Of a DNA stretch of 40,242 bases, positions 20,072 to 33,292 are shown piece after piece. The stretch's first letter is position 1; each line of letters opens with the position of its first letter. This stretch comes from Clostridium sp. CAG:253 (GTDB taxonomy: Bacteria > Bacillota > Clostridia > Lachnospirales > Lachnospiraceae), in NCBI GenBank assembly GCA_000436755.1, contig FR887297.1:8461-48702 (forward strand), given 5' to 3'. The position numbers and the translations under genes were made by a program. The notes below the pieces were generated by a model. The model saw only the letters and a program-made list of their open reading frames with translations. It was not told the DNA's origin and ran no database searches.

Positions 20072-21643
20072 TTATTTATTTTCTTTTTCCATCTTCTCAT
20101 ACTTAGCAACATCTTCATCTGAGAGAACATTATATCCGCTCTTTCCGAAATACTTAAGCATTGCTTTTGCATGATAGTAATTTGCCTTCGAAGTTGCCTC
20201 GTCTATATAGTCAGCAGCTTTCTTTTCTCCGCTGTCAACTTTTGTATGAATATCAATCTTGTTGAAGTATTCATTACAGTAGTTCCAGTATCCTGCGATA
20301 CTTGTCCAGCCATAAGGAATTGGCTGCATACAGCTTGCAAAGTATTCTTTCCAAAGTTTAACATGCTCGTCATCCATGCCCTTGCAGTACATCTTAATGT
20401 AATCATCCCAGATTTCTGAGTTAGTTGTAATAGGTGCCGGCATAACGTCATATTTAAGTGCAAGACCCTTAGAGTTCTTCTGTGTCTCGTCGTTGTAAAG
20501 TTCGATTCTTGTCTTCCATCCATCCTGGCCAAAGCTCATGAATTTAAGAAGCTCATATGCTTCACGAGGATATTTACAAGATGTTGTAACACCACCAAAG
20601 TCGATAGTTGCGATTGAGTGATGATCTTTTGTTGCATCTTCCTTGCTTACTGCAGGAATTACATAAGGTACGATATCAAGGTTGTATTTCTTGAATGCTT
20701 TTGTAGCCCATGTTCCCTGATATGTCCAGAATGCTTCTGTGAAGAGTGCTACATGGCTTGAAGCTCCGCACCATGCATCAGCAGAACCCATCCAGTTCTC
20801 CATGTCAAGTGTCTGTGTCTGAGGTGCGATATATCCGCCCTGTTTAAGTTCTGCGAACTGCTGCTCACCTTTAGCCCATGCTGAAAGGTCAAACTGTGTT
20901 CCGTCGAAACCAAACTCACCCTGTACTGTCTGCTTAGCAGCGATTCCATAGTATGAGTCAAGTCTGTTGTAGTAACCGCATCCATAATATGCCATACCGT
21001 CTGAAGACTTCTTAACTGTACAATCTTTGATGAGTTTAATCATGTCATCCCATGTCCAGTTTCTTGCTGGCTCTTTTACATTAAGCTGTGTTAATACGTT
21101 TCTGTCAACGTACATAACACCAGGGAAGAATTTAACAGGTACTGCATATCTCTTATCTGTTCCATAACATCCGAGTCCGCAGTCATTAACTGTTGATGCT
21201 AATTCCTTTGTCTCAGGATCTGAATTCCAATATGATGAAATATCCTGTACAAGCATGTTAGAAAGTGCGAAATCCGCATCTGAGAACATGATTACGTCAG
21301 GAGATTCCTTGTTTGATACCATTGTAAGCAATGAATCATTGTATTTGCTTACAGCCTGATATTTTACATGTACTTTGATGTTTGGATAGATTTCCTGGAA
21401 ACGGTCTGCAAGGTACTGAACAGTCTCGTCCTGATCAAAGTGATAATATGTAAGTTCGATATTGTCCTTTGTAATATCCTTTGCCTTTTTATACTTGATT
21501 CCGTTGAACTCCTTCTCATCGTACTCACCGGAAACTTTTGATGCGCTGTTTGTAGAGCTGCCACCGTTTTTGTTGCTTCCACAAGCTGTCATACCTACAA
21601 CCATAGATGCAGCAAGCAGAAGTGCCATAAGTTTTTTCCTCAT
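20072..21643 (-). CDS. CUT1-type extracellular sugar-binding lipoprotein (second ABC system)
   Basis: 523 residues from ATG 21643, chosen because GGAGG lies just before it; the open frame reaches further upstream without a site. The lipoprotein signal ends GMTAC (Cys21). The body is a family-1 extracellular solute-binding fold, seen in TKDNIELTYYHFDQDETVQYLADRFQEIYPNIKV and SPDVIMFSDADF, and it is somewhat long for the family. Inferred ligand: arabino-oligosaccharides or related pectin fragments. It lies downstream of the second permease pair, but a strong terminator and a separate promoter stand between, so it is expressed on its own, as is common for binding proteins needed in excess. Three hairpins follow its stop. 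Confidence 0.88.
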   Translation of the reverse strand: MRKKLMALLLAASMVVGMTACGSNKNGGSSTNSASKVSGEYDEKEFNGIKYKKAKDITKDNIELTYYHFDQDETVQYLADRFQEIYPNIKVHVKYQAVSKYNDSLLTMVSNKESPDVIMFSDADFALSNMLVQDISSYWNSDPETKELASTVNDCGLGCYGTDKRYAVPVKFFPGVMYVDRNVLTQLNVKEPARNWTWDDMIKLIKDCTVKKSSDGMAYYGCGYYNRLDSYYGIAAKQTVQGEFGFDGTQFDLSAWAKGEQQFAELKQGGYIAPQTQTLDMENWMGSADAWCGASSHVALFTEAFWTYQGTWATKAFKKYNLDIVPYVIPAVSKEDATKDHHSIATIDFGGVTTSCKYPREAYELLKFMSFGQDGWKTRIELYNDETQKNSKGLALKYDVMPAPITTNSEIWDDYIKMYCKGMDDEHVKLWKEYFASCMQPIPYGWTSIAGYWNYCNEYFNKIDIHTKVDSGEKKAADYIDEATSKANYYHAKAMLKYFGKSGYNVLSDEDVAKYEKMEKENK

Positions 21644-21725
21644 AATATTCCTCCTTAAAATTTTCGATATCCGTACAACTAATAATAAATTATTCATCGT
21701 ACCAGCATCTCACTTGTTGTTGTAT

Positions 21726-33200: not shown

Positions 33201-33292
33201 CTCCTAAGTGTTGCAGAGCCTAATGCCATTGACACAACCAAACCAACAGCGACCGTTTTCTTAAACTTACCTCCAATTTTTCTGTGCCGCAT
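30269..33292 (-). CDS. Giant extracellular binding protein: two beta-sandwich modules, helical region and solute-binding domain
   Basis: 1007 residues, more than twice the usual 400-450. A Sec signal (about 1-34) has no lipobox cysteine, so the usual lipid anchor is missing. An acidic Ser/Thr linker (about 35-65) leads to a beta-sandwich (about 90-255), a second one resembling CBM6/35 (about 265-405; ITIQGEDYTSTNSSS, VSYEFEVKVAGNYKI), a helical section (about 410-560) and a family-1 solute-binding domain (about 590-970; GINVDISIMPDQYKLVLSN, APDVATGINY, ADYATFNMLTN). It is the first gene of the operon, with a strong promoter and an operator-like palindrome. The fused modules suggest direct capture of a polymer or large oligosaccharide before transport. 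How it is kept at the cell is unclear. Confidence 0.82.
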   Translation of the reverse strand: MRHRKIGGKFKKTVAVGLVVSMALGSATLRSFAKDVTEDTSTTSESDSSDKKESSVTSEEYSSERIATIYSNISKDYTASDYTGEPVTVSEENSVTAGGKKYLTTKVKGYEKSDKVLDLSSGKKVTLNFAVPEDGLYYMNFDYLSYDDSILPVSMKMKVDGKYPFYECRSLEFETTWKLSEEKAYDRYDNETVTIPNKQIQWESKYLMDSSYRHSDPLKVQLTKGKHSIELSVDEGNFLLGNISLEAPASVEEYKGSSDKADGDELITIQGEDYTSTNSSSIHGVAEYDTSVDPYQAKDTVLNTLDSDSFNTAGQTVSYEFEVKVAGNYKIAANYRQSEKTDFPVFCDVAIDGKVPNTAFKDYSMAYSTKYKTATMQDSKGEDLSVYLKEGKHTISYTISMNPISYIMEEIDEVMSDVNDLALEITKVAGTNADKYRDLKLSKYIPNLEKTLYSYSDRLTKLEKSAVKWSDSDKNVAVMSSLLIAAKQLKSLADSPDSIPYRIAELSTSSNSVNHYLATTIDNLIANDLAIDRIYIYQDGAKLPSKPGFFKSCAMSVSRFVASFTDQAYSTKNTNEDHIQVWVNRSSQYVQIMQKMIDEKFTPQTGINVDISIMPDQYKLVLSNSSGNAPDVATGINYTIPYELGIRGALVNMAQYDDFKESTDGYEPGFFMTGSINDGIYSMPETMNFWVLFYRSDVLEKLNLEVPQTMDDVIAMLPKLQMRGLNFYYPTAGMTLMRNFHGTTPLIVQNDGSLYAKTAAEGTALGKEKSVNGFTKLTDLFTVYNMPVNVDNFYQHFRNGDMPIGIADYATFNMLTNAAPELSSSWKVALIPGTKKLDGTIDRSVCGCAESSVIFKSNTERQKKAWEFVKWWSSTETQAEFGQTIQITYGDEYIWPTANTKAFAQLPINSETKKVVEQTAKNVKDVARVPGTYLLEREISNTFNDIAVNGDNEQTRIDKAVKTVNHEFERKLEEFGYNDSDGKVIKDYNIPTYESVKKLLGRTDDDE

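Follow-up and report, generated by a model that had tools for sequence, protein, structure and literature searches.

The window analysed here, a stretch of 40,242 nucleotides (nt) from Clostridium sp. CAG:253 (contig FR887297.1, positions 8,461 to 48,702), carries a cassette of eight genes in which two CUT1-type importers are combined with two further proteins. One of these, NHL-YIP1, consists of an NHL propeller, a TPR-like part and a YIP1 membrane domain; the other belongs to the DUF5696 family (PF18952) and has the fold of glycoside hydrolase (GH) family 129. The cassette is real and widespread, a form of CUT1 importer to which two accessory proteins are linked; gene linkage and fold are both well supported. 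The reading that we favour, with a probability of roughly 0.55, is that of an oligosaccharide importer in which two CUT1 permease pairs and their binding proteins would work with a membrane scaffold, NHL-TPR-YIP1, and with a DUF5696 protein that would bind glycan without cutting it.

Gene order and linkage of the cassette

All cassette genes are on the minus strand, and all coordinates are window positions. The order of transcription is the large substrate-binding protein SBP1 (30269..33292, 1007 residues; domain search and structure model), the permeases MalF1 (29290..30255) and MalG1 (28402..29271), NHL-YIP1 (26305..28368), DUF5696 (23964..26312, TTG start; PF18952 E 6e-177), a second permease pair, MalF2 (22919..23971) and MalG2 (21946..22950), a hairpin terminator, and SBP2, a binding lipoprotein with a lipobox (TAC; 20072..21643). 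The permeases and SBP2 are recognised by domain search. The MalF1 open reading frame (ORF) extends over 29290-30294, from a TTG at 30294; ATG codons at 30255 and 30243 are candidate starts. A sequence-only reading had already placed all eight genes at these positions, and the gene overlaps of 8, 8 and 32 nt that it gave are reproduced exactly. The likely terminator 3′ of MalG2, which it put near 21850, is a strong hairpin followed by a T-rich stretch at about 21829..21868 (-20.2 kcal/mol, z -5.0); a pattern scan missed it because its 10-base loop is longer than the scan's loop limit of 8. Since SBP2 lies beyond this terminator, it is probably transcribed separately from the rest of the cassette.

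All four permeases match BPD_transp_1 above its cut-off and are of the CUT1 MalF/MalG type. Their closest NCBIfam likenesses are to UgpA, UgpE or GlcU, all far under the equivalog cut-offs. Each has an EAA coupling loop, a motif that is conserved over 106-122 loci; the strict count for MalF1 is just 47/122 because most MalF1 sequences have the variant EAG. The cassette shares MalF/MalG-like permeases with EAA loops and binding proteins with CUT1 importers of the MalFGK/UgpAEC type, but it adds to the ordinary set a second permease pair, a binding protein fused to modules resembling the carbohydrate-binding module CBM35, and the two linked proteins. No ATPase gene is found among the 24 window proteins scanned, so the distant ATPase proposed by the sequence-only reading is plausible for the window importers. 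MsmX is an example of such a multitask ATPase. In Paenibacillus cellulosilyticus, a plasmid record has the annotated cassette directly behind a UgpC-type ATPase gene. The absence of an ATPase gene from the window proteins scanned is in line with multitask ATPases, which are treated in PMC7658222.

The cassette arrangement recurs across genomes and is therefore more than chance. A scan of reference genomes with NHL-YIP1 gives 27 close loci, the closest from Eubacterium sp. MSJ-13 (95% identity in NHL-YIP1), followed by Butyribacter intestini (90%). DUF5696 adjoins NHL-YIP1 in 27/27, and all eight genes stand in order in 21/27; the incomplete loci are either cut by contig ends (L005, L011, L021 and L023) or are without a recognised SBP2 (L007 and L017). 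Among 299 genomes drawn from the phylum and scored for at most four DUF5696 and three NHL-YIP1 candidates per genome, DUF5696 is above the cut-off in 26, and a comparison by eye finds the long NHL-YIP1 profile matches in the same 26. Nine further genomes match the NHL-YIP1 profile, eight of them in the NHL part alone, over about 80-110 positions, the ninth being G257. The second draw covers 98 genomes of the family of G036; here, among the matches listed, to which all counts for this family refer, both proteins occur in the same 67 genomes, again compared by eye, and neither occurs in the remaining 31, of which four show sub-threshold DUF5696 matches only.

The same picture emerges from single loci. 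Forty distant loci with DUF5696 were read, 36 from the 45 phylum rows above the cut-off and four others; NHL-YIP1 adjoins DUF5696 in every one and MalF2-MalG2 follow in 39, the contig of L073 ending before them. The nine remaining phylum rows comprise the close locus L002 (G002), L112-L114 and L163-L167. MalF2-MalG2 follow DUF5696 in all of L163-L167, and NHL-YIP1 is seen in L165 and L167; the contig of L164 begins with the last 46 or so YIP1 residues, which a further reading frame separates from DUF5696, and L163 and L166 start inside DUF5696. The pair is thus visible in 43/45 rows, the other two being unable to show it. The pair also stands together in L098-L111, which were reached by other routes, save for L110, at a contig end, and L111. 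The latter (G257) was considered as a free NHL-YIP1 and rejected: its contig looks chimeric, the first 215 or so NHL residues being fused in frame at the contig edge (L111:7682-8536) to an unrelated end, which we take to resemble EtfA. In L106 only the pair is visible; its DUF5696 frame is short and sits where the contig starts, and no permease can be seen. In the G036 family, 127/150 DUF5696 rows have a same-strand NHL-YIP1 row upstream; the 23 unpaired DUF5696 rows and 22 unpaired NHL-YIP1 rows lie in loci that contain both proteins in 45/45 cases. The link of the two genes to CUT1 importers, which the sequence-only reading would have given up had they stood mostly apart from transporters, thus holds in both draws. 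The cassette is also annotated on plasmid pNP243 of Butyrivibrio fibrisolvens, behind a GH43 gene. Some genomes are rich in DUF5696, G422 and G488 having 11 and 8 matches among those listed, some of which are possibly gene halves; the copies in L140, L141 and L127 look frameshifted.

Although both importers are present in most loci, as the proposal of two channels had it, the first is not obligatory. MalF1 is missing in 16 of the 75 evaluable loci with NHL-YIP1, DUF5696, MalF2 and MalG2 (77 loci with these four core genes, less L021 and L061, which lie at contig starts; L117-L167 are outside the count), and L165 and L167 lack it too. Such loci, and the EAA-type loops retained by all pairs, would fit two ordinary CUT1 importers that share an operon but act independently, taking up different fragments of one polysaccharide, with the accessory proteins serving MalF2-MalG2 only. 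We see this as a credible possibility, if short of a probable one, and it is partly compatible with the importer that we favour. The reduced loci come from seven genomes, however, and six of these (G054, G076, G096, G115, G149 and G179, which account for 15 of the 16 loci) have at least one complete set as well; in G254 the one locus seen is reduced. In a DUF5696 tree quickly built from 58 loci, 7 of them from the 27 close ones, the reduced loci fall within a complete clade and need two changes. Since complete sets exist elsewhere in six of these genomes and the reduced loci have this position in the tree, loss with help in trans is possible; the pattern fits loss after duplication, perhaps with such help. 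MalF1 is moreover present in 44 of the 45 G036-family loci, and the exception, L127, is cut by a contig end. Distances of the core proteins correlate at 0.954-0.979 over 69 loci, and those of YIP1 and DUF5696 at 0.988 over 52 complete loci. Gene order varies in a few cases: the first importer is downstream of the core in L085 and L086, NHL-YIP1 follows MalG2 in L105, and in L114 SBP1 is downstream and no MalF1 is seen. In L077 (3861-6720), MalG1 is split: some 1.6 kb separates its two parts, and the ORF that lies there on the opposite strand (4883-6211) is probably an insertion.

The NHL-YIP1 protein and SBP1

The window NHL-YIP1 protein has NHL repeats (PF01436, E 4.3e-13) and belongs to the Yip1 family (PF04893, 38.9 bits against a cut-off of 28.6). 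The TPR part that the sequence-only reading saw between them is matched in a relative: the window protein has no TPR match at E <= 0.1, and the protein of L062 carries a TPR_11 match (E 8e-6). By hydropathy, the protein has a signal-like segment at its N terminus, a further hydrophobic one at 435-453 and five more within YIP1, so a predicted topology with the propeller outside and YIP1 within the membrane fits.

The accessible part of PMC4887032 describes the Yip1-family protein YknW of Bacillus as an accessory of the ATP-binding cassette (ABC) transporter YknXYZ that modulates its assembly. The idea that YIP1 is without an assigned role in bacteria, as had been supposed, is ruled out by this protein, which is the best precedent found for what may be an assembly role of NHL-YIP1. 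YknWXYZ differs from the cassette in being a MacB-type exporter, and that part of the paper describes no partner with a GH fold. Literature searches on YIP1 with transporters, and on NHL, arabinan and transport, found no description of the cassette. YvdJ (DUF1189) and YesL (DUF624) of B. subtilis are presumably small membrane proteins beside CUT1 operons; to our knowledge they have no propeller, and DUF624 is matched by 2/70 flanking ORFs of the distant loci.

SBP1 consists of two CBM35-like β-sandwiches (about 85-250 and 263-400), a helical segment (402-525) and the binding-protein domain (about 577-976). PF16990 (CBM35) matches at E <= 0.1 in 23/39 SBP1 members; the β-sandwiches were hardly probed by the fold search.

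Propellers, TPR and multi-span membrane domains are common in assembly factors, and NHL-TPR and YIP1 are separate reading frames in 16/40 distant loci and two annotated genes in pNP243. NHL-YIP1 and DUF5696 could on these grounds be a pair that sees to the export, folding or quality control of surface glycan proteins and is simply co-transcribed with importers. General chaperones would also be found elsewhere, however, and the pair is not found away from CUT1 permeases wherever contigs reach far enough; the GH fold of DUF5696, too, suggests contact with glycans. We therefore consider such a role very improbable.

DUF5696 and the mode of uptake

DUF5696 is built of an N-terminal β-sandwich, a TIM barrel and a C-terminal β domain, and is exported or anchored at its N terminus. 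It has fold and domain order in common with DagB (ZGAL_3152, 5opq) and NagBb (5wzn) over 548-574 residues, and the profile matches these GH129 proteins at E 1.1e-14 and 2.4e-9. The overall fold is thus that of GH129, to which GH101 is related; a novel fold is ruled out for this family, for which the sequence-only reading knew no role in bacteria. DUF5696 departs from GH129 in having no PF11308 match (0/16 members at E <= 10, filters dropping most matches above about 0.1), in not conserving the catalytic set and in being tied to importer genes. PF11308 had no match in the 299 genomes, a negative that carries no weight because the controls were likewise silent, and the C-terminal half of DUF5696, the expected catalytic part, finds no GH129 entry by sequence.

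In an approximate mapping, DagB D486, E517 and E531 correspond to Tyr580, Glu612 and Asp627 of the window protein; DagB Asp202 is left unmapped. Position 580, that of the nucleophile, has an acid in 0/28 sequences of the window clade, and all three positions are acidic in just 5/124 sequences. The residues that distinguish wild-type NagBb from its quadruple mutant are aligned with other residues in the DUF5696 profile at three of four positions, the fourth falling in an insertion. GH129 is also treated in the accessible parts of PMC8106489 and PMC6923384. A piece of DagB run against 398 genomes matched one DUF5696 locus and L162, and against plasmids nothing. The L162 protein (5418-8033), the phylum's one GH129-type protein to score with DUF5696 as well, is intermediate in sequence between GH129 enzymes and DUF5696; it is ruled out as a stand-alone DUF5696 (PF11308 4.2e-31 against PF18952 6.1e-9). 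The reduced cassettes L062, L064 and L071 have an insert of about 100-200 residues in the N-terminal sandwich. L054 and L055 match DUF5696 weakly in the barrel region; L054, the one scanned, is DUF6259, which by sequence may be another GH-barrel family. DUF5696 was not found in IMG/VR, and a literature search found no paper naming the family.

In the mechanism that we favour, secreted GH43 enzymes would cut arabinan, and SBP1, with its two CBM35-like modules, and DUF5696 would capture the branched fragments. DUF5696 would be held outside the membrane and, in the window clade, bind glycan without cutting it. NHL-TPR-YIP1 would serve as the scaffold, with propeller and repeats outside and its YIP1 helices next to the permeases within the membrane, positioning the receptors above the MalF/MalG pairs, so that propeller and DUF5696 might pass substrate to the channels. 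ATP would come from a shared MsmX-type ATPase encoded elsewhere. A bolder version, which we put forward only tentatively and hold to be rather doubtful, makes the cassette a Gram-positive counterpart of SusCD, in which the Yip1-propeller scaffold docks a dead glycosidase and a CBM-armed binding protein on two ABC importers that are fed with large branched plant glycans.

Several points weigh against the importer with a non-cutting DUF5696 protein. Outside the window clade, position 580 is acidic in 86/96 sequences, 31 of which are also acidic at 612, so some of these members could be active. The catalytic mapping uses L162 as a stepping-stone, whose local alignment is very poor (score -3), and is possibly off by a few residues. 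CBM35 scores 20.6 bits in window SBP1, under the cut-off of 28, the SBP1 model has a mean pLDDT of 68.2, and the models of DUF5696 and SBP1 are both built on shallow alignments (38 and 25 rows). Distance correlations that involve the first importer (0.938-0.974) are nearly equal to those within the core, and linkage by itself would lead one to expect such correlation.

The distant acids at 580, and at both 580 and 612 in 31/124 sequences, also speak for an alternative in which DUF5696 is an active exo-glycosidase related to GH129, with a residue set that merely differs, which trims oligosaccharides at the membrane before import. Even though the GH129 fold is complete, Asp639 and Glu675 are conserved in 105/124 and 122/124 sequences and DagB itself differs from NagBb in catalytic residues (according to the accessible part of PMC5698469), the missing acid at 580 in the window clade, the rarity of the full set, the misaligned NagBb residues and the silent C-terminal half make such an enzyme unlikely. 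A substrate-specific hydrolase that stays the same while the GH sets beside it vary so widely would also be odd.

The usual picture of how Gram-positive gut bacteria take up plant oligosaccharides has a single binding protein, a pair of permeases and an ATPase. The cassette adds to that picture two linked proteins, one of them with the body of a glycosidase and, in the window clade, without the mapped nucleophile. PF18952 gains a fold and a testable role, Yip1 proteins gain another bacterial setting, and the cassette signature could serve to find glycan loci.

Substrate context and neighbouring genes

The cassette is flanked on the same strand by a GH43 gene (18838..19794), an α-L-arabinofuranosidase gene of the GH51 type (17321..18826) and a larger GH43 gene (34073..35704), which resembles the endo-arabinanase AbnB under the model cut-off. 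Counterparts of these genes occur in 20, 19 and 18 of the 27 close loci, respectively. Because GH43 and GH51 flank the close loci, arabinan, the substrate proposed by the sequence-only reading, is supported for the window clade; it does not hold as the general substrate and is ruled out as such by the varied GH families around the distant copies. A scan of 137 of the 226 flanking ORFs there, tallied over the first 25 families, finds GH42, GH26, GH31, α-L-fucosidase, apiosidase, pectic acid lyase, chondroitinase B and GH43, as well as melibiase, arabinofuranosidase, GH3, GH10, GH88 and many further binding proteins. With such a mixture, the cassette appears to be a platform that serves plant and other glycans in general, not an arabinan device. 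Gram-positive polysaccharide utilization loci of Roseburia, such as the arabinan locus Ros-8, likewise have GH51 and GH127 genes around an ABC importer, and the accessible part of PMC5320581 makes no mention of Yip1 or DUF5696 proteins.

Two other groups of genes lie at the ends of the window. At 35835-40237, a gene for a protein with a Reg_prop propeller and an HD_5 (HD-GYP-like) domain overlaps by one base the gene of a PnrA/Bmp-like binding protein, and the two are possibly a ligand-sensing signalling pair. At 1-5336, what looks like a flavin-based surface redox cluster comprises Fer4_5, two FMN_bind proteins, the flavin transferase ApbE and a protein that combines fn3 with the Tp47 domains a and c.
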